Shown piece by piece: positions 7,854 through 54,710 of a stretch of 59,009 nucleotides of DNA; the first letter of the stretch is position 1; each line of letters starts with the position of its first letter. This DNA comes from a virus: positions 1 to 59,009 of the IMG/VR virus record IMGVR_UViG_3300048063_000379; one strand, 5' to 3'. The translations under genes were made by a program, and so were the position numbers. The notes below the pieces were generated by a model. It worked only from the letters and a program-made list of their open reading frames with translations. It searched no databases and was not told where the DNA came from.

Positions 7854-8993
7854 ATGATTAGAGAAAACGTAATAGTTAGTGGTTCACTTGACGTGAGTGG
7901 ACAATTTATCATACCAAGAGGTAGTAGAGGGGAAAGACCTACTTCACCTGAGATAGGTTCTATGTACTTAGAAGAATCTACAAGTGGTAGTTTCGTTGTT
8001 ACATACACTGGTTCATCTAATTATGATGATGGTTGGGAACCAGTGGGTTCGCAAGATACTGACAGAACAGGATTCAAATACAGACAAATAATAAACTATT
8101 CATATTTGGCAGGTGGATATAAGTCAGGTTCACCTTGGAAGAATGTACATAAAACAATTAACGCAACCGACCAAACATCTCACTTAGGTGAGTTATTAGA
8201 TTACCCTGCAAACTATACCTCAGGGGCGTGTAGTAAAACTAAATTATTTCTTTGGTCAACAAATACGGATGGTGCTCATAAAGGCGCAACTAACATACAC
8301 TCAACACATACATCAGGTATTGATATGGTGAATGAAACAACATACACCCACCAATCTAAATGGGATTTATTAAATGCGAGAGATGATTGTGGTACCCTAT
8401 TTAAAGAAACGGAGTTTGCGTATGTTTTTGGTGGATCTGTAGCAACAGTTGAGAAATTCAATTTAACAAATGAGACAATGTATACCACTTATTATCCTGG
8501 TGGTTCACCATATGTAACAACAACTTCATCTATTACAAGTACTTTAGGTTCATCAGGATTCTCTGATGAAAATTATGGTTACGGTTACGGTTCTGAAAGT
8601 GGAAACAAATGTCACTTTGCTACTGATGTGTTCGAGACAAGGGCATCCTCATGGGCGTCTAGTGGACAACAGAAAGGGATTAGTTCTAAGGTTGGTAAAG
8701 GGTATTGTGGAAATGAAGGTACATATAATGGGGGTTATAATTTGAGAAGATGGGATGTCTTTACTGAAACCAATATAGGTAATGTACCTAAACCCCACCA
8801 AAATTGTGGTGAAGAAAACTTCACATTAGGACAAGACCATCAATACATGTTAGCAACATACGATGGTACAGGTCAAACAAATACAAGTTGGAAATTCTCA
8901 TATACGACAGATACGGGTACGGTAAATCCTGCAGGGTTAGCACCAGGTGTTAACGCAGGTGCATCATCAGGACATTGTGGTTGGAGAAATTAA
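7854..8993 (+). CDS. Fibre-associated adhesin-like protein, paralog 1 of 3
   Basis: 379 aa. First of three tandem paralogs. It begins with an IxENVIVSGSLxVSG-type N-terminus also seen in virion fibre proteins, followed by an SxGSMYLEES-TYTG strand region and the conserved core 'YSYLAGGYKSGSPWKNVHK', 'GELLDYPANYTSGAC' and 'GYNLRRWD'. It ends in a conserved SSGHCGWRN. Several conserved Cys (in TSGAC, NCGEE and GHCGW) could make disulfides or bind metal. The repeated short aromatic/Gly strands suggest a beta-propeller or beta-sandwich, but no enzyme motif is visible. Lying directly after the fibre gene, it is probably a virion tip protein or receptor-binding adhesin; this is inference from position and composition. 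Confidence 0.75.
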   Translation: MIRENVIVSGSLDVSGQFIIPRGSRGERPTSPEIGSMYLEESTSGSFVVTYTGSSNYDDGWEPVGSQDTDRTGFKYRQIINYSYLAGGYKSGSPWKNVHKTINATDQTSHLGELLDYPANYTSGACSKTKLFLWSTNTDGAHKGATNIHSTHTSGIDMVNETTYTHQSKWDLLNARDDCGTLFKETEFAYVFGGSVATVEKFNLTNETMYTTYYPGGSPYVTTTSSITSTLGSSGFSDENYGYGYGSESGNKCHFATDVFETRASSWASSGQQKGISSKVGKGYCGNEGTYNGGYNLRRWDVFTETNIGNVPKPHQNCGEENFTLGQDHQYMLATYDGTGQTNTSWKFSYTTDTGTVNPAGLAPGVNAGASSGHCGWRN

Positions 8994-9005
8994 CTATTTA
9001 TAGAT

Positions 9006-10124
9006 ATGATATTTGAAAATTTAGAAATTAGTGGGTCGTTAAGAGGTCAGGGAATAACAAGACCACCCTCAGGTGCAAAGGCGGATAGACCTTCCTCACC
9101 TGAAAAAGGATCTATGTTCTTAGAAATGACGACATCGGGTAGTTTCGACAATAGTTTTCTAATGGTTTACACGGGTAATGGAAATGATTCTGGTTGGGAG
9201 AGAATTGCGAATCAAAGTAATTTTGGTAAAACCAGTTTTAGGTTCAATCAAATTATTAACTACTCTTATTTGGCGGGAGGGTATAAATCCTCATCACCTT
9301 GGAAGAATGTACATAAGACGGTAAACTCTACAGATCAAACATCACACTTGGGTGAATTGTTAGATTATCCTGCATCATATACTTCAGGTGCGTGTAGTAG
9401 AACTATTTTCTACGTATGGTCTGTTAATAATGATGGTGCATGGAAGAGTGCGAGTAATGTACATGGTACATATACATCTGCGATTAATATGGTAACCGAT
9501 ACTAATTATACACACACCGCTGAGATGGATACTAATATAGCAAGAAGTGATTTAGGTACGATGCATAAGGAAACAGAAATGGCATATCTTTTTAGTGGGG
9601 GTAGTGCCACTGTTGAGTTATTTAATTTAACCACAGAATCCTTACATACGGCATATACACTATCAACAATAAACGGTAGTGATGGTGGTTCGGCATTTTC
9701 GGATGAACTATATGGTTATGGTTGGACTTCAAGTGGAGGTGTCAAATTAAACTTTTCAACGGAAACTTTTGCAACATCCCCTCATTGGTCAAACCATTCA
9801 CAACAAAAAGGTATCTCATCTAAAGTTGGTAAAGGTTATGCCGGTAATGAAGGTTCATATAGTGGTGGTTATAACTTAAGGAGATGGAGTAATCAAACAG
9901 ACACCAATATAGGTAATGTTGTCAAACCCGATGGTAACTGTGGTGAAGAGAATTTTACTATGGGTCAAGATTGGCAATACATGTTAGGTAATTATAATGG
10001 TCTCCAAAACAATAATTCATGGAAATTTACATACGCAACTGATACGGGTACAACAAGTGTAAGTGGGTTAAATCCCGCAGTAAACGCTGGTACTTCATCA
10101 GGTCATTGTGGTTGGAGAGAATAA
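9006..10124 (+). CDS. Fibre-associated adhesin-like protein, paralog 2 of 3
   Basis: 372 aa, colinear with both neighbouring paralogs. Core landmarks 'NYSYLAGGYKSSSPWKNV', 'LGELLDYPASYTSGAC', 'KGISSKVGKGYAGNEGS' and 'SSGHCGWRE' are kept. The central segment (about residues 140-260) and the segment just after the N-terminal leader differ most, as expected if those surfaces contact different receptors. The start is 12 nt after the preceding stop and lies within a TATTTATA-containing spacer, so a separate promoter is possible. Expected to be a virion surface protein; the exact role is unknown. Confidence 0.75.
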   Translation: MIFENLEISGSLRGQGITRPPSGAKADRPSSPEKGSMFLEMTTSGSFDNSFLMVYTGNGNDSGWERIANQSNFGKTSFRFNQIINYSYLAGGYKSSSPWKNVHKTVNSTDQTSHLGELLDYPASYTSGACSRTIFYVWSVNNDGAWKSASNVHGTYTSAINMVTDTNYTHTAEMDTNIARSDLGTMHKETEMAYLFSGGSATVELFNLTTESLHTAYTLSTINGSDGGSAFSDELYGYGWTSSGGVKLNFSTETFATSPHWSNHSQQKGISSKVGKGYAGNEGSYSGGYNLRRWSNQTDTNIGNVVKPDGNCGEENFTMGQDWQYMLGNYNGLQNNNSWKFTYATDTGTTSVSGLNPAVNAGTSSGHCGWRE

Positions 10125-10136
10125 AATTTTAAGAAT

Positions 10137-11252
10137 ATGATATACGAAAATATGTCCGTTAGTGGTTCACTTAAAGTGGACAGAGTTACTGCAAGACCAC
10201 CGAAAGGTGTTAAGTCACAGAGACCATCGAACCCATTATCTGGTTCTTTATTCTTGGAAGAATCATCAGAACACACAAGTTATTTAATGGTTTATACGGG
10301 TGTGTCTAATGTGGATGAGGGTTGGGAAAGAATTTCAGCACAACAAAACGAAGGAACTAATTTTAAGTACAGACAAATAATTAATTATTCTTACATCGCC
10401 GGTGGATATAAATCCTCATCACCTTGGAAGAACGTACATAAGGCAACCAACGCAACTGATCAAACAACCCACATTGGTGAGTTATTGGACTATCCCGCAA
10501 ACTACACATCAGGAGCGTGTAATCTTAGAATATTTTTTATGTGGTCTGTAAATACGGATAGTGCACATAAAGGACCAACGTCTCTACATAGTAACACAAC
10601 TTCTGCGGTCAACATGTTTACCGACACTAACTACGCCCACCAATCTAACCATGACTTACAATATAGTAGGTCCGATTGTGGAACCATGTGGAAAGAACAT
10701 GAGTTTGCTTGGATTTTTGCGGGTAACAGAACAGAGGTAGATAAATTTAATTTAACTAATGAAACGACAATAACAAACTATGGGGTAACCTCGATAAGTA
10801 GTAGTGGTGGAGCGAGTTCTTTTTGTAATGAAACCCATGGATATGGATGGAGTACAAGTAGTATAAAAATGGAATTCTCTACGGAGACTATATCAAGTTC
10901 ATCAAGTTCATGGTCAGCACACGGACAACAAAAAGGTATTCCATCTAAAGTTGGTAAGGGTTATGCCGGTAATGAGGGATCTTACCAAGGTGGTTACAAT
11001 TTGAGAAGATGGGATACATCTACAGATACGAATATTGGTAATGTTGCAAAATTAAGATCGAATTGTGGGGAAGAGAATTTCGCTATGGGCCAAGATTGGC
11101 AATACATGTTAGGTTGTTACGGTAGTTCTTTACAGAATAACGATAGTTGGAAAATGTACTATCAAACAGATACGGGAGTTTTAAATCCCGCGGGTCTTCC
11201 ACCGGCAGTAAACGCTGGTACTTCATCAGGTCATTGTGGTTGGAGAGAATAG
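10137..11252 (+). CDS. Fibre-associated adhesin-like protein, paralog 3 of 3
   Basis: 371 aa, third member of the tandem set. It keeps 'NYSYIAGGYKSSSPWKNVHK', 'IGELLDYPANYTSGAC', 'GYAGNEGSYQGGYNLRRWD' and the C-terminal SSGHCGWRE. The N-terminal leader (SGSLKVDRVTARPPKG) differs from the other two, while the ~30 residues at the C-terminus are nearly the same in paralogs 2 and 3. This suggests a fixed C-terminal scaffold with variable exposed loops. The ~58-nt spacer after it is AT-rich and separates the adhesion region from the next group. Confidence 0.75.
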   Translation: MIYENMSVSGSLKVDRVTARPPKGVKSQRPSNPLSGSLFLEESSEHTSYLMVYTGVSNVDEGWERISAQQNEGTNFKYRQIINYSYIAGGYKSSSPWKNVHKATNATDQTTHIGELLDYPANYTSGACNLRIFFMWSVNTDSAHKGPTSLHSNTTSAVNMFTDTNYAHQSNHDLQYSRSDCGTMWKEHEFAWIFAGNRTEVDKFNLTNETTITNYGVTSISSSGGASSFCNETHGYGWSTSSIKMEFSTETISSSSSSWSAHGQQKGIPSKVGKGYAGNEGSYQGGYNLRRWDTSTDTNIGNVAKLRSNCGEENFAMGQDWQYMLGCYGSSLQNNDSWKMYYQTDTGVLNPAGLPPAVNAGTSSGHCGWRE

Positions 11253-37228: not shown

Positions 37229-38068
37229 ATGAAGTTATCTTCTCTTTATGAGGAATTGAGCACTAGAAAAGTTCAAGCAATACTAAAACGTAATCCTGAT
37301 TTTTTCCAAAACAGAGTTAGGTTTGTTTTGGGTGCAAATAATGGTGTGTTTGATTTTGAGATACATATAAGTCCTGAAGATATTGGTGACTATGTTGGTG
37401 GTGACTACAACATACGTAGTTACACAACTAAAGATAATAGAAAAGTCGACATTGGACTTTTTGAGACCATATTAGATGGTGATATTTGGGATATTTATGA
37501 AAACTACCATTACGATGGGGATTGGGAGTCAGTTTTAGATTATTATTTAAGTCCCGAAAATGAAGAGAAAATTAAAGATATTATCAATAAACTAATTAAG
37601 AGAGAAGGTAAGGAAATAGAGGACCATGAGGGAGAGTCTTTACAGGACTTAATTGAACAGTACGACACTGAAGACCACATTAAAGGTATTCTAAGAGAAT
37701 GTTTGAGTAGTGCACAGGCTGACGATTATGTTAATTACCTAAAAGACCAATTAAGAGAATGTTTGATGGAATATGGGGATATAAAAAGTTTTGACCATGA
37801 AGGGGTTACACTTAAAATAAAATTCTCAACAATGATGGATATGTTAGGTCAAGATATTGATGATGTAGACGTAATAGATAAAATGGACGAAGATTGTGGT
37901 TACGACCCTAAATGTTATTTCGAGGAAATGTTTTATAAAAACACTTACGACTCACCTAAGTTTAGTCCTGATGATAGATATCAAGGTGATGCTAGTAACG
38001 AGAACGTTAATGATATGATTAACGATAGATTGGGAGAGGTTGAGTATGATTATAAATTAGAGGGATGA
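37229..38068 (+). CDS. Unknown acidic protein, paired with WCTA-motif protein
   Basis: 279 aa, rich in Asp and Glu. The N-terminus 'MKLSSLYEELSTRKVQAILK' is a short amphipathic helix. 'FDFEIHISPEDIGDYVGGDY' follows, then a helical core with repeated 'RECLSSAQADDYV' / 'RECLMEYGDI' segments. No catalytic signature. The stop overlaps the following gene's start by 4 nt. A TATTTAT motif precedes it after the terminator, so it probably opens a late transcript. Confidence 0.55.
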   Translation: MKLSSLYEELSTRKVQAILKRNPDFFQNRVRFVLGANNGVFDFEIHISPEDIGDYVGGDYNIRSYTTKDNRKVDIGLFETILDGDIWDIYENYHYDGDWESVLDYYLSPENEEKIKDIINKLIKREGKEIEDHEGESLQDLIEQYDTEDHIKGILRECLSSAQADDYVNYLKDQLRECLMEYGDIKSFDHEGVTLKIKFSTMMDMLGQDIDDVDVIDKMDEDCGYDPKCYFEEMFYKNTYDSPKFSPDDRYQGDASNENVNDMINDRLGEVEYDYKLEG

Positions 38069-39888
38069 AGTTAATAGAAACAATTTACGAACTTATTCTT
38101 GAGGCGAGACCAAAAGAAATATACAAAAAATACTATTCAGATATAGAATGGAATGTGTTTCTTAACATAATAAGTTTAGACCCCAAAACAAAACTTAAAC
38201 AAATACCAGAAGACTACGAAATACTAAAGATTGGTAAGTACGCTAAGTTACTTATTAAAATGTTTAAATCGAATAAACTAAAACCAGAGGATTATCCAAA
38301 GGCAAAAGAGTATCTTACGTTAGTCTACAAACATCAAGTACCTGTCGATGTGAACAAAGTAAAAGAATTAGGTGACCTATATACCCTCGTGGAGAAATAC
38401 TATGTTAAGGATGGGGACCGTAATTACTTTGATGTGGTTAATACTTTAACTGATTCTGATCATAAACTATTAATGAGTGGTGAGAAATGGATCATATACA
38501 CCCCAACAACTGAGAAAGGTGCCGCTTACTTAGGTCACGGAACACAATGGTGTACTGCATGGGGACCATATTCGACGAATGACCAATATAAAGGTCGTAG
38601 TAACCACTTCTCACAACATAATAACAAAGGAAGTCTATATGTTATTGTGAAAAGGGACGAACCAACACAGAAATTTCAGTTCCATTTTGAAACTAAACAA
38701 TTTATGAATCCCGCGGATAGAGGAATTTCCACTTCAGATTTCTTTAACAAACATAGGGAAGTTACAAAATACTTCTTCCCATCATTGTTTGATGACACAC
38801 CAGTCGACAGTACTGAATTAGACAGAATGGATTTCTTAGGTTATGTGGATGTGGCCACATTAACTGAAAAAGAGATTGGGGACACCGACAATAAGTTGGT
38901 AGAAATACTAATTAATAACAATGGTGACGAACTTATTGAAAAACTAAATGAGGGGTCATTTATTAACGACGGTAATGTATTAGATGTGTCGTCGGACCAA
39001 CGAGACAATAATAGAATAATATTTACACTTAGTGAGATAGGTGATGACGTTGAAACGACAAAATATGCGTTAGATGGGTATAAGTCCGCTTCAGGTCATT
39101 ATTCAGATCACGGGGAATACCTTAGGAGTGACATAACAGATACTGACGAAGATCAGCAAAAAGAAATATTAACACCAATACTCGAAGCATTCTACGATAA
39201 AAATTATATCCCTTATGCAAACAGTCGTGATGAATTTATTAAGAAAATAAGTTTTACGTATTTTGATGAACTTATTAATGATCTTGCGGATGAATACTCT
39301 CAATTAAATGAAGAGGGTGTTAGGTCTGCAAATGAAGTTAAAGAGAATGAGATAACGAAATATATAGACATTGATGAAGATCGTAATAGTCATGACATAT
39401 ACATACCGGTAATGAGGTTAGCTCTGTTTATATCCAAAGAAAATATTACACAAATAACCGATTGTGAGAGTTTATTTGATGCATATGTTGATAGTAAAGA
39501 TCTTAACTATGAGTACGAGAACCCAATGTGGGAAATTCCATTAGAACAAGTATCACTTAAAGATATGGAAACCCATATCGAGGGTTACTCATCTAAATTA
39601 GAAGAAGAATTTGAATCACATCCCGAATGTGAAAAATCAAGAAACGAGTTACAAGAAATACTAAATAAGTATTTTAAAAAATATGGTGGTTATAATACAA
39701 TATACCGTTTTAATAACGAACATGTACAGGTAACAATACAAGATAAATTCGATTGTGAAAAGAATGGTGTACCTGTAGAGGTTATAATCGAAGAGAAAGG
39801 TGAACAAAAAAGAGAACGATACACAGGTACTATCTCAATTGAGAAAGTGAAAGAATACATTTCCATGGAACCCCTTATGGAAGAATAA
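38065..39888 (+). CDS. Large protein with GTQWCTA motif and MKLIETIYELILEA leader
   Basis: 607 aa. The first 14 residues (MKLIETIYELILEA) resemble T4 capsid-targeting leaders, with a possible L-x-E|A protease site. Residues ~141-215 hold 'GHGTQWCTAWGPYS' (Cys163), 'NNKGSLYVIVKRDEPTQKFQFHFE' and 'FMNPADRGIS', a module found in other large-phage proteins. Its Cys-then-strand layout is like the PcfJ core. The remaining ~380 residues are acidic and helical. It may be an internal head protein delivered with DNA; this is a hypothesis. It is coupled to the preceding gene. Confidence 0.55.
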   Translation: MKLIETIYELILEARPKEIYKKYYSDIEWNVFLNIISLDPKTKLKQIPEDYEILKIGKYAKLLIKMFKSNKLKPEDYPKAKEYLTLVYKHQVPVDVNKVKELGDLYTLVEKYYVKDGDRNYFDVVNTLTDSDHKLLMSGEKWIIYTPTTEKGAAYLGHGTQWCTAWGPYSTNDQYKGRSNHFSQHNNKGSLYVIVKRDEPTQKFQFHFETKQFMNPADRGISTSDFFNKHREVTKYFFPSLFDDTPVDSTELDRMDFLGYVDVATLTEKEIGDTDNKLVEILINNNGDELIEKLNEGSFINDGNVLDVSSDQRDNNRIIFTLSEIGDDVETTKYALDGYKSASGHYSDHGEYLRSDITDTDEDQQKEILTPILEAFYDKNYIPYANSRDEFIKKISFTYFDELINDLADEYSQLNEEGVRSANEVKENEITKYIDIDEDRNSHDIYIPVMRLALFISKENITQITDCESLFDAYVDSKDLNYEYENPMWEIPLEQVSLKDMETHIEGYSSKLEEEFESHPECEKSRNELQEILNKYFKKYGGYNTIYRFNNEHVQVTIQDKFDCEKNGVPVEVIIEEKGEQKRERYTGTISIEKVKEYISMEPLMEE

Positions 39889-45195: not shown

Positions 45196-45226
45196 TTGTA
45201 TATTCTAAAAAACATTAGTATATTTG
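45196..45226 (+). promoter_or_regulatory. Bacteroidota-type promoter
   Basis: TTG at 45196-45198, 20 bp, TATATTTG at 45219-45226, 21 nt before the caspase-fold gene. Confidence 0.72.
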
Positions 45227-47403: not shown

Positions 47404-48372
47404 ATGATTAGAACCGCAGAATGTGTATCCCCAATGCACCCAGATAAGATGTGTGACAGAATTTCGGACACATTATTAGACCTACATTTAGAACAAGACC
47501 CTAACTCACGATGTGCAATTGAAACTTGTGGTGGTATGGGAGAAGTTTACATTACAGGAGAAGTTACTTCAAATGCGGTAGTAACAAGAGAAAATATTGT
47601 AAAGGTGGTTCATGATGTAACTACCGATAACACAATTAATGTTATTATTAATATCAATCAACAATCATCGGAGATTGCTCAAGGAGTTGATATTGGTGGT
47701 GCAGGTGACCAAGGAATTATGATTGGTTATGCTTGTAGAGATAACGATCAAAAATTACCACAGGAATATTTCTTAGCACGTGAATTAAACAAACTTGTAT
47801 TCGAATTCTTTCCATATGATGGAAAAACTCAAGTTACAATGAATGGTAACTCACTTAGAGTTGTATGTTCATTTCAAAACGCACCTCAACACAAATTAGA
47901 AGAGTTATGTGTTTTATTTTTTGAAGAAAATTATCCAATGTATAGGATAGAGTCACTTCATTGTAATCCTGCGGGTGATTGGAACATTGGTGGGTTTACC
48001 GCTGATGCGGGTTTAACGGGAAGAAAACTAGCAGTGGATAACTACGGACCACGAATACCTATTGGTGGTGGTGCGTTTAGTGGTAAGGACGCAACTAAGG
48101 TTGATAGATCCGCAGCATATATGGGAAGAAGAATTGCAGTGGATATTTTAGAACAAAGACCAGAGGTAAAAGAAGTTATGGTTCAACTTGCGTATGCAAT
48201 TGGATATGACCAACCACTCCAAGCAACTGCAATCGTTGATGGGAAACATGAATTTATCAAAGGATATGATTTATCACCTAAAGGTATAATTGATTTCTTA
48301 GAATTAAGAAGACCGATATATAAAGATACCGCGTCATTTGGACACATGGGATGTGATTTTACGTGGAAATAG
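47404..48372 (+). CDS. metK: S-adenosylmethionine synthetase
   Basis: 322 aa. 'MHPDKMCDRISDTLLD' is the ATP/Mg site (HPDK), 'VDIGGAGDQGIMIGYA' is the methionine/ATP loop (GAGDQG), and 'GRKLAVDNYGPRIPIGGGAF' plus 'GKDATKVDRSAAYMGRRI' form the conserved phosphate-binding segment. 'QLAYAIGYDQPLQ' follows. It makes SAM from ATP and methionine. It is about 60 residues shorter than E. coli MetK (384 aa), mainly by losses in loops. It could raise SAM supply for the DNA methyltransferase, the radical SAM enzyme and the class I methyltransferase. Confidence 0.95.
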   Translation: MIRTAECVSPMHPDKMCDRISDTLLDLHLEQDPNSRCAIETCGGMGEVYITGEVTSNAVVTRENIVKVVHDVTTDNTINVIININQQSSEIAQGVDIGGAGDQGIMIGYACRDNDQKLPQEYFLARELNKLVFEFFPYDGKTQVTMNGNSLRVVCSFQNAPQHKLEELCVLFFEENYPMYRIESLHCNPAGDWNIGGFTADAGLTGRKLAVDNYGPRIPIGGGAFSGKDATKVDRSAAYMGRRIAVDILEQRPEVKEVMVQLAYAIGYDQPLQATAIVDGKHEFIKGYDLSPKGIIDFLELRRPIYKDTASFGHMGCDFTWK

Positions 48373-52836: not shown

Positions 52837-52924
52837 AAATGTCAAATGTCTCCTTTACTAATAGAGGGACATGGTTAGTACTCTTGAGTACATAATATTA
52901 GGATTAAATACATTTAAATATAAT

Positions 52925-53716
52925 ATGGGAAATTGGTTTAAAAAGGCGGGAAAAACTATTAAAAAGTCTGCCGATAAGGCCGCAGATAAGGTTAAGGATA
53001 CAACCAACACCGTTGCGAAAGAAACTACTAATGCGGCGAACACCGTTGCGAAAGAAACTACTAAGGTAGCTAACACAGTTGCCAAAACAACTACAAATAT
53101 TTATACTGACTCTAAAAAGGCAGTGGTGAAAACAACTAACGTAGTTGCTAAAAACACTGAAGAGGCTGCGAAACAAGGATTGGATGTTGCATCTGATACT
53201 TGGAAGGAAGGAAGTTCACAAGTAATTGAGTTTTCAAAAGATGGGTTAGAGGCAATCGAGGACGCTGCGGAGGCGACAGTCGATTGGTTAGATGAGAATG
53301 CATGTTACATCGGATTAAATATGGCATTAACAACAGGTTGTGTTGCGTACTTCACACCTAAACCGGCACCTGCAGATCCAGGTACTGTGACATCAACTAC
53401 TATTAGTGCAACCATGTTGGGTGCGATCGCGTCAGTTGGTCAGAAAGTTGCGATAATGGTGGTCTCCAAAGAGGTTGGTAAACTTTTGGCGGATGGTATA
53501 TTTTTAATACCTGGTGTGAAAGGAAAATGTGATAAGGAATTATTGACAAGAGTTCTCACTAATGTGATTGCTAAGTCGAATCCTATATATACCACAGCCG
53601 CGTTATCAACACCAGCAGGGGTTGGTTTGTTTGTTGGGTCAGTAGTTTCACCGATAGTGGCAACACTAATTTGTGAGGGAGTGGTACCAAATGGGTTCTC
53701 TAAATTAGACGATTAA
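52925..53716 (+). CDS. LEA-like 11-mer repeat protein with hydrophobic C-terminal domain
   Basis: 263 aa from the Met of 'MGNWFKKAGKTIKKSADKAA'; the frame extends upstream through a spacer. Residues ~10-85 are amphipathic helical 11-mers (NTVAKETTNAA-type), as in LEA/apolipoprotein-like or phasin-like proteins. Residues ~86-130 are a linker, and the C-terminal ~120 residues have three hydrophobic, Gly/Ala-rich helices (SATMLGAIASVGQKVAIMVV, STPAGVGLFVGSVVSPIVAT). The fusion could bind a membrane through the repeats and insert the tail, i.e. a membrane-shaping or pore-type role; speculative. Two Cys bracket the linker. Confidence 0.6.
   Translation: MGNWFKKAGKTIKKSADKAADKVKDTTNTVAKETTNAANTVAKETTKVANTVAKTTTNIYTDSKKAVVKTTNVVAKNTEEAAKQGLDVASDTWKEGSSQVIEFSKDGLEAIEDAAEATVDWLDENACYIGLNMALTTGCVAYFTPKPAPADPGTVTSTTISATMLGAIASVGQKVAIMVVSKEVGKLLADGIFLIPGVKGKCDKELLTRVLTNVIAKSNPIYTTAALSTPAGVGLFVGSVVSPIVATLICEGVVPNGFSKLDD
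53006..53104 (+). repeat. 33-bp tandem repeat encoding LEA-like 11-mers
   Basis: A 25-bp string (AACACCGTTGCGAAAG...) occurs identically at 53006-53030 and 53039-53063, and again diverged near 53072, with period 33 bp. The period equals 11 codons, matching the amphipathic 11-mer, so the array is a recent in-frame duplication. Confidence 0.75.
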
Positions 53717-53745
53717 AAAAAAATATAAATATTTTTATTATTTTA

Positions 53746-53776
53746 TTGATTTAATAAAAAATGTTTTATATATTTG
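53746..53776 (+). promoter_or_regulatory. Promoter of structured RNA
   Basis: TTG at 53746-53748, 20 bp, TATATTTG at 53769-53776. It reads directly into the non-coding region beginning ~53783, with no start codon placed to use it for a protein. Confidence 0.75.
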
Positions 53777-53782
53777 TACCAA

Positions 53783-54287
53783 CAAAAGGGATAGGTTGAA
53801 CAAAACGATACCGATTGACCCCTAACGTTCTTTAAAATATTGAAAAGAGGCAGGATTAAGATTGATCATCAATATCCTGAGTGTATGGGAGAATAAATCT
53901 TTGTGAAAGGGGATTAATCCACACTGACAGTAGACACGTTCTACTATTTTTGCTGAGGTTCGCAAGACTGATGTAAAGATATCTTGACAAAGAAGAAGTG
54001 GTAGACATTACACAAGCTAAACAGCTTACTTTCAAACTCATTGTGAGACGGTCGAAAGATCAAACTCATCTTGTGACTGAATAACCCTTCTGTTCGGGGG
54101 TAAGGTAAACTATAAGGGGTTGTACCCGCATCGTAGGATTAACACTCCGAAAATGAATCAATGTAAAAATTGGTATAGTTGTATGAGTATAAAACACGAC
54201 AGAATGATCTTCCTTGGATAGCATACCGAGGTATACATCCTCTTTTTTATAATAAACCCTTTTCCGGTAACGGTTAAGGGTTTTTTT
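53783..54287 (+). ncRNA. Large structured non-coding RNA, family not recognised
   Basis: About 505 nt between a promoter and an intrinsic terminator, with no plausible coding frame on the plus strand. Local helices include: CAGGAT/ATCCTG enclosing ATTGA-TCA-TCAAT (53851-53879); AGTG..TGG/CCA-CACT enclosing AATC..TTT-GTG-AAA..GATT (53880-53925); AGTAGA-loop-TCTACT (53929-53945); AAGCT-AAAC-AGCTT (54014-54027); CTCA-TTG-TGAG (54037-54047); GGTC-GAAA-GATC (54050-54061); GGGT-TGT-ACCC (54117-54127); GGAT-ATAC-CGAG-GTAT-ATCC (54216-54240). GC content is higher than in flanking spacers. It does not fit RNase P, tmRNA or 6S landmarks by eye. Role unknown. Confidence 0.72.
54254..54287 (+). terminator. 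Terminator of structured RNA
   Basis: AAACCCTT / AAGGGTTT outer stem (54254-54261 with 54276-54283), a TT/TT internal loop, a CCG/CGG inner stem and a GTAA tetraloop, followed by T residues. A strong intrinsic terminator. Confidence 0.88.
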
Positions 54288-54320: not shown

Positions 54321-54350
54321 TTGTATATCCTAAAAAATATACTATATTTG
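54321..54350 (+). promoter_or_regulatory. Bacteroidota-type promoter
   Basis: TTG at 54321-54323, 19 bp, TATATTTG at 54343-54350, 14 nt before the ATG at 54365, restarting transcription after the RNA gene. Confidence 0.7.
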
Positions 54351-54364
54351 GTGAAATTAAAAGT

Positions 54365-54556
54365 ATGAAAATTTTTGCAGTAAAAAACGGTATAAGATAT
54401 TTCAGAGAACGATTAGAGTCTACAGACAATAAAGACAGAAAGGTCTACTATAGAAACGAAATTTATAGGTTGGAAGAAAAACTGTATAATTTACAATTTA
54501 AAGAAGAAGAAAAACATTATGGTGAAATTATTCAGGAACGAGAAGGGTCAGATTAA
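54365..54556 (+). CDS. Small helical/coiled-coil protein
   Basis: 63 aa, highly charged. 'NGIRYFRERLESTDNKDRKV' and 'NEIYRLEEKLYNLQFKEEEK' predict a helical hairpin. It overlaps the next gene by 38 nt. Unknown. Confidence 0.5.
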   Translation: MKIFAVKNGIRYFRERLESTDNKDRKVYYRNEIYRLEEKLYNLQFKEEEKHYGEIIQEREGSD

Positions 54557-54710
54557 ATTATTAGAAGGTCAGGTAGAACTTGTGGGTTCAGACGGTAAAA
54601 AGATACGACACCACCCAACTAAATTCTCAATATGTGGGTGCGGAAAAAGTAAAACAATATTATGTGATGGTTCACACAAACCAAAAGAAGATGAAAGTAA
54701 AGAAAATTGA
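54519..54710 (+). CDS. CDGSH-type iron-sulfur protein
   Basis: 63 aa. 'FSICGCGKSKTILCDGSHKP' carries Cys39, Cys41, Cys49 and His53 in the order C-x-C ... C-D-G-S-H, the 3Cys/1His ligand set of mitoNEET-like [2Fe-2S] proteins. The loop between C41 and C49 is one residue shorter than usual and lacks the common Pro. The N-terminal half is a small beta region. It could transfer electrons or clusters. It overlaps both neighbours. Confidence 0.8.
   Translation: MVKLFRNEKGQIKLLEGQVELVGSDGKKIRHHPTKFSICGCGKSKTILCDGSHKPKEDESKEN

Follow-up and report, generated by a model that had tools for sequence, protein, structure and literature searches.

The window analysed here is the whole stretch of 59,009 nt that makes up the IMG/VR virus record IMGVR_UViG_3300048063_000379. 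Between a 281-aa ORF (52871-53716) and a series of small ORFs that begins at 54365 lies a stretch of the plus strand (53783-54287) that is predicted to be copied into a stand-alone noncoding RNA. This RNA, called here the window RNA, would start near 53783, behind a promoter, and end in the U-run of a terminator, with no ORF of its own. An initial annotation had seen no plausible gene here, and the reading frames agree; the ORFs of at least 40 aa that overlap the stretch (75, 61, 47 and 41 aa) are all antisense, and stops interrupt all three frames of the plus strand. The same annotation had set aside tmRNA, RNase P and 6S RNA, and these exclusions stand: ARAGORN finds no tRNA or tmRNA gene in the window, and Rfam scans of the window RNA match none of the three, nor GOLLD or ROOL.

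The first ORF downstream (54365-54556, plus strand, 63 aa) has no Pfam match, and a CDGSH iron-sulfur ORF (54519-54710) follows it; no metabolic gene was recognised directly 3' of the window RNA. The phage setting that the annotation had assumed is borne out by the virus record itself and by a 142.7-kb sister contig with genes for a DNA primase of phage type and for nuclease subunits like SbcC/SbcD. Among isolates, the closest match to that primase is in Flavobacterium phage vB_FspM_immuto_2-6A, at 31% identity. Elsewhere in the window, three ORFs of 379, 372 and 371 aa in a row (7854-11252) resemble tandem paralogues and adjoin a 2383-aa repetitive fibre-like protein, while 47404-48372 encodes a 322-aa S-adenosylmethionine synthetase whose match to the central domain is partial.

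Upstream of the RNA stands an exact TTG-N20-TATATTTG sequence (53746-53776, plus strand), with TTG at 53746 and TATATTTG at 53769-53776. We take this to be the Bacteroidota promoter consensus. Three copies of the full pattern occur in the 59 kb, where a first-order Markov control predicts 0.2; the two further sites, at 45196 and 48373, each have an ATG directly downstream. The contig of the nearest relative retains 32 nt of the promoter region (53741-53772) at 88% identity (E 2.4e-5). Because of this excess, the position of the other two sites ahead of ATGs, and the retention in a relative, the promoter is probably real, as the annotation had claimed. The annotation's strong terminator with a GNRA tetraloop is likewise recovered at 54254-54287 (plus strand), where AAACCCUU-UU-CCG-GUAA-CGG-UU-AAGGGUUU precedes U7, with a folding energy of -15.9 kcal/mol. 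A simple consensus scan for terminators missed it, and the UU facing UU within the stem is the probable reason. A second promoter-like site (TTG ... TAnnTTTG, 54321-54350, plus strand) lies upstream of the next genes; looser sites of this type number 15 in the window, against 5.8 expected.

Folding by energy says little here. The 505-nt fold (-122.7 kcal/mol) has a z-score of -1.80, and seven of 100 dinucleotide shuffles are equally or more stable; by part, the z-score of the minimum free energy is -0.79 for the 5' part and +0.37 for the manA-like part described below. Thus, of the eight or more hairpins that had been noted by eye, the GGUC-GAAA-GAUC hairpin exists, but the abundance of hairpins is near that expected by chance. 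The evidence for structure is comparative, and is restricted to the 3' part of the RNA.

The 5' part, some 275 nt (53783-54056, plus strand), gave homologues solely in identical contigs of the same virus. A blastn search of the window RNA against phages gave short matches in five records, at E 0.2 or worse. When the records of ten relatives were searched, nine gave short matches, the best two (E 2.4e-5 and 8.2e-4) within the promoter; the best match outside the promoter, of about 25 bases, has E 0.007. A candidate outer closing helix pairs GAAAAGAGG (53842-53850) with CCUCUUUUU (54239-54247), both on the plus strand. It appears in both the minimum free energy fold and the centroid fold, and its nine pairs are no better than chance. 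Were this helix real, most of the 5' part would amount to an insertion separating closing helix from core.

A manA-like domain

A permissive Rfam scan aligns 54057-54241 (185 nt, plus strand) with positions 1-192 of the 192-position manA model (RF01745), at 47.3 bits and E 5.3e-11, or E 1.1e-12 when the whole record is scanned. This is below the manA gathering score of 55.2 bits. No Rfam family is thus matched at its gathering score, yet at permissive thresholds manA is matched over its full model. The virus is also represented by contigs of 142.7 kb and 75.7 kb, which score the same, the stretch being identical letter for letter. Another Rfam candidate, L10_leader (E 0.0082), was rejected; it reaches 29.4 bits against a cut-off of 44, mainly from the terminator and a U-rich spacer.

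Within this domain, two conserved core strands, UGACUGAAUAA (54074-54084) and UAAGGU (54101-54106), enclose a hairpin, H1 (CCCUUCUGUUCGGGGG, 54085-54100), all on the plus strand and all intact. The GGU of UAAGGU is able to pair with ACU of the UGACUGAAUAA strand. Following these, the Rfam alignment places the manA multibranch stem, with AACUAU (54108-54113) as its 5' strand and AUAGUU (54175-54180) as its 3' strand. A regular-expression search gives a possible terminal hairpin, GAGG-UAUACAU-CCUC (54228-54242, plus strand), which resembles the GGUA..AAUCC hairpin of the manA family; the Rfam alignment uses 54212-54231 instead, and the hairpin and the candidate outer helix exclude one another. 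Two possible likenesses, one between the terminal hairpin and a tRNA T-arm, the other between UAAGGU and 23S rRNA, were dropped.

Weinberg et al. described manA in 2010 as a candidate riboswitch that lies in potential 5' UTRs and is almost confined to marine metagenomes and T4-like cyanophages (PMC2864571); another paper places it also in an estuarine cyanophage (PMC9964418). The window RNA resembles it in matching the full model, in the UGACUGAAUAA-H1-UAAGGU core, in the multibranch stem, and in its phage setting. There are differences too. Just 5' of the core, where manA has a GGGAG..CUCCC closing helix or pseudoknot, the Rfam alignment puts positions of the window RNA that do not pair, and no closing helix adjacent to the core was found. 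The window RNA carries some 275 nt extra on its 5' side and its own terminator at its 3' end. Last, manA stands in the 5' UTRs of mannose/fructose, nucleotide, ibpA or photosynthesis genes, whereas the window RNA is followed by a terminator and other ORFs. Since it scores below the cut-off and two positional features are missing, it is not filed here as a member of manA; it is likely a longer, divergent relative.

A core shared by many phage RNAs

Viral contigs were scanned with the pattern TGACTGAATAA-gap-TAAGGT, which gave at least 120 stretches, and with patterns for other forms, which gave 14, 103 and 71 stretches, with overlaps. At this pattern length chance matches are expected, of course, and the hairpin was therefore used as a test. 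Of at least 221 distinct matches, 203 passed a filter for the hairpin or for the cyanophage type, and 200 were left after three that lay within ORFs were dropped. Here, "cyanophage-type" is a label for an H1 sequence like the cyanophage form, assigned by sequence and not by host.

Among the matches listed, before any hairpin filter, H1 abuts both core strands with at least four pairs in 84 of 95 viral cases and in three of 109 cellular ones, a comparison in which three of the four viral scans limited the bases at the hairpin edges. Without edge limits, and again among the matches listed, the TAAGGTA form has at least four abutting pairs in 12 of 14 viral cases (against 3/109 cellular), and the TAAGGT form at least three pairs in 87 of 94 (against 6/101). 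An alignment, A2, was built from 48 of 67 dereplicated members and one Sepunavirus row, 19 members being omitted as extra cyanophage-type sequences or as doubtful. Across 49 sequences, in rows pre-filtered for the hairpin, 97.4% of H1 cells are paired, against 48.1% when shuffled, and the covariation score is 1.257, against 0.245. Because these rows were selected for the hairpin, the abutting-pair test is the fairer of the two. Covariation, which the annotation had expected of a structured RNA, is thus heavy in the group that carries the core hairpin; this evidence does not extend to the 5' part, for which the searches gave no homologue.

Many members have a closing helix, P1, immediately beside the core, and its sequences are unrelated (for example GCATAG/CTATGC, GAAGTG/CACTTC, GGTCTCG/CGAGACC). 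Of 30 distinct 5' strands, 13 form a helix of at least 5 nt with the 3' strand of the same member; with the 3' strands of others, shuffled, the mean is 5.3% and the maximum 23.1%. A looser test for helices within 700 nt is little above its control at eight pairs (97/164 against 44%), and is clear for the longest helices alone, of at least 12 pairs (11/164 against 1.8%).

The manA model captures part of this group. In two sets of records picked for carrying the motif, with one record common to both, it matched 30 of 42 at E <= 0.01 (17 above the cut-off, 12 with no match) and 25 of 32 at E <= 1 (six above the cut-off), the seven of 32 with no match including both staphylococcal records. In cellular genomes the core pattern gave at least 119 stretches, and the sole apparent real member among the matches listed is in a WOR-3 MAG (L248, JAGMCL010000063.1), with the closing helix GGTCTCG/CGAGACC; this is possibly a phage contig in the MAG bin. 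A BLAST search of five other members against phages gave no match.

A second motif, CUUAGCGGA, occurs with at most one mismatch in 11 of 66 dereplicated members, against 1.55 expected, and is absent from the window even at two mismatches. It recurs in members of the tRNA-array group (L061, L080, L114, L417 and L454) and in the staphylococcal RNAs. Some individual members have features of their own. One 136.8-kb viral contig (L064, G020:C1:95347-95736) has two adjacent manA-like matches that overlap by about 30 nt, as if in tandem. Another (L018:2997-3287) has a tmRNA (Rfam 110.3 bits) on the same strand, about 1.1 kb downstream of a manA-like core, and in L445 ARAGORN predicts a tmRNA.

The Rfam model did not find the RNA in nine contigs, mostly fragments, that are linked to the window virus by their primases (42-100% identity), and a model of the core gave nothing better than E 0.16 in these nine and in phage immuto. 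That search gave matches in 12 of 21 records, all at E 0.16 or worse except for the window virus, phage K and one Sepunavirus. Because it was not found in the contigs of related viruses, the window RNA looks like an accessory element.

Staphylococcal phages and lncRNA2 of phage K

Two of the scan matches (L425 and L473) are isolates of staphylococcal phages. A 501-base query around the staphylococcal RNA was covered over at least 80% of its length in 237 of 361 matching phage records. In six staphylococcal records, which include Kayvirus, Baoshanvirus and Sepunavirus, the core strands are constant except for one base, while H1 differs fully between branches and retains its pairing. In these six, P1 has 12 to 26 pairs with no mismatch; with one mismatch allowed it has 25-27 pairs in five and 17 in Baoshanvirus, where its sequence is quite different from the others. 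Together, P1 and H1 show changes on both sides in 14 of 25 pairs, against 5.4 in shuffles, and RNAalifold predicts 165 pairs in the staphylococcal RNAs, 68 of them with changes on both sides. In Silviavirus the core itself has changed, to UGGCUGAUUUAA...UAAGGC, so that an A-U pair of the core has become G-C; H1 is new, the closing helix is different (27 and 18 bp in the two records), and the architecture is retained.

A core model from whose training the window and the staphylococcal rows had been left out was run against 14 records. It matched seven: the window (E 1.5e-9), phage K (E 1.8e-8) and five other staphylococcal phages, E-values that are not free of selection, the staphylococcal records having been reached through the motif or through BLAST from such a match. 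T4, SPO1, P100, Twort, immuto and two Silviavirus records were unmatched. The exact core is missing from eight of ten isolate records, namely T4, SPO1, Listeria P100, Twort, immuto, the two Silviavirus records and PG-2021_12.

In phage K (NC_005880.2), the core runs on the minus strand from 38564 and is flanked by a 21-bp closing helix that covaries among relatives. In the same accession, the published coordinates of lncRNA2 are 38,024-38,566 (PMC11598898). The published 5' end is therefore two bases beyond the core and falls at the base of P1. According to the same source, lncRNA1 and lncRNA2 account for 27% of overall phage K reads, the highest of any region; in phage 515A1, lncRNA2 is given 8.4% of counts and a promoter, p78 (PMC7698491). 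Another study places lnc002 at 37679-38832 and likens these lncRNAs to GOLLD and ROOL by location and abundance (PMC9241854). GOLLD and ROOL are indeed large phage or prophage RNAs, and both are absent from permissive Rfam scans of the window RNA and of two staphylococcal RNAs. In the article text reached by a PMC search, no link of the kayvirus lncRNAs to manA was found.

The window RNA shares with lncRNA2 identical core strands with a hairpin between them, a promoter of its own, the lack of an annotated ORF, and approximate size (543 bp as published, against about 505). The extra domains lie 3' of the core in lncRNA2 and 5' of it in the window RNA, and lncRNA2 has the 21-bp helix abutting the core and tRNA genes downstream, where the window RNA has neither. 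The Rfam manA model does not match the two staphylococcal records, one of them a related Kayvirus; the link to phage K thus rests on core, H1 and architecture. Judged from sequence, some chance of convergence between the core of phage K and the manA-like core has to be allowed.

Two other candidates were set aside. lncRNA1 of phage K is without the core followed by UAAGGU, and its matches to lncRNA2 reach at most 15 bp. The rnaC and rnaD of T4 are, by annotation, also small stable phage RNAs beside tRNA genes; they are without the core motif, and rnaC has a hairpin like a tRNA T-arm. Upstream of the phage K RNA, NC_005880.2 is annotated at 38833-39051 with a ribosome associated inhibitor A, zinc finger domain; in relatives such a gene is likewise annotated upstream, in some of them one ORF further off.

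Leader or separate RNA

What, then, would such an RNA do? Rfam types manA as cis-regulatory, and Weinberg et al. list it as a riboswitch candidate. By this account, the window RNA would be a leader whose ligand-dependent terminator gates the genes at 54365 and 54519 (CDGSH), as a manA riboswitch or attenuator, and the terminator does come directly after the manA-like domain. Of the cyanophage-type loci among the matches listed, 37 of 70 have an ORF starting within 100 nt downstream on the same strand, against 19 of 96 of the other loci, by simple ORF calls. The genes downstream do not, however, share a theme: for loci listed with enough flank, 152 proteins fall into 84 clusters. The larger of these, judged by eye, are presumably a gp32-like protein, ThyX, transaldolase and Hsp20. 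Some members stand instead beside tRNA genes, which begin within 300 nt downstream on the same strand at 13 of 96 loci not of the cyanophage type and at four of 70 that are, among the matches listed. Within 1 kb, and again among the matches listed, 13 of 38 dereplicated loci not of the cyanophage type have a tRNA, where random positions give 6.3 +- 1.9 and at most 12; for all dereplicated loci the figures are 13 of 45 and 6.7 +- 2.0, and the highest of 300 random draws also gives 13. The association with tRNAs is modest. In phage K, the tRNAs downstream of the abundant RNA are much less transcribed (PMC11598898), and in the window the genes downstream could be transcribed from the promoter-like site at 54321. 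We regard a leader as unlikely here. Taken with the RNA's own terminator and the site at 54321, the varied downstream genes and the tRNA neighbours speak for a separate RNA rather than for a leader tied to one kind of gene, which does not by itself prove action in trans.

The initial annotation had offered a possible new class of large phage RNA, and one might still suppose such a class, unrelated to manA, in which the core matches by chance. No Rfam family does reach its gathering score, and the 5' half has no homologue that was found. This supposition must, however, accommodate an end-to-end manA alignment at E 5.3e-11 and the match of the held-out core model, and the core with its hairpin is common to more than 100 viral contigs; novelty in that sense is lost, and a chance match is very improbable. 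The most skeptical view is that no functional RNA exists, the stretch being an AT-rich intergenic spacer with a decayed remnant of manA. Fold energies near chance, a closing helix that is not recognisable, and the failure to find the RNA in contigs of related viruses would all suit this view. Yet a decayed remnant would hardly be expected to keep both core strands and H1 intact between a promoter and a terminator, and we give this view almost no weight. The identical stretch in two other IMG/VR contigs might be cited against decay, but these are copies from the same virus, uninformative on constraint.

Thus, a real phage noncoding RNA at this locus is likely on the sequence evidence, given the promoter, the terminator and the highly significant core. 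More specifically, 53783-54287 probably encodes a stand-alone RNA of about 0.5 kb, with a 3' part that is a divergent relative of manA and a core common to a wide group of phage RNAs that includes lncRNA2. Comparison of sequences establishes the core, the covariation of its hairpin, the occurrence of the core in the lncRNA2 of phage K, and the predicted promoter and terminator. The best reading of these is a structured phage RNA that stands alone and acts in trans, rather than a metabolite switch. Such an RNA would be made during infection, would fold around its conserved core, and may accumulate as a stable and abundant species. For the window virus, the abundance that the annotation had proposed is plausible by relationship to phage K lncRNA2 alone. 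The RNA would then act in trans, with the core as the contact site for a host partner presumably common to many bacteria. The likeliest partner is perhaps the translation machinery, offered as a guess that could well be wrong; the ribosome associated inhibitor A neighbour, known from annotation, would fit it.

The wider link to phage K lncRNA2 is the point worth following. In the available text of the sources, manA is a riboswitch candidate that has stood without explanation since 2010 (PMC2864571), and the kayvirus lncRNA2 a very abundant RNA without explanation since 2020 (PMC7698491). A common, covarying core would merge these into one question, that of the host factor bound by UGACUGAAUAA-H1-UAAGGU, and would make it testable in a culturable phage. 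It would also bring into the range of such RNAs a phage whose promoter we take to be of the Bacteroidota type, and implies that the Rfam manA model, at its cut-off, captures a part of the group only. More tentatively, manA, lncRNA2 and the window RNA might have branched from a single ancient superfamily of phage RNAs that act in trans, with a common core that docks onto a host machine conserved across bacteria; within that reading, the ribosome or some other factor of translation would be the likeliest such machine. Were this true, manA would not count as a riboswitch, and the superfamily would take in the most abundant transcript of the kayviruses.
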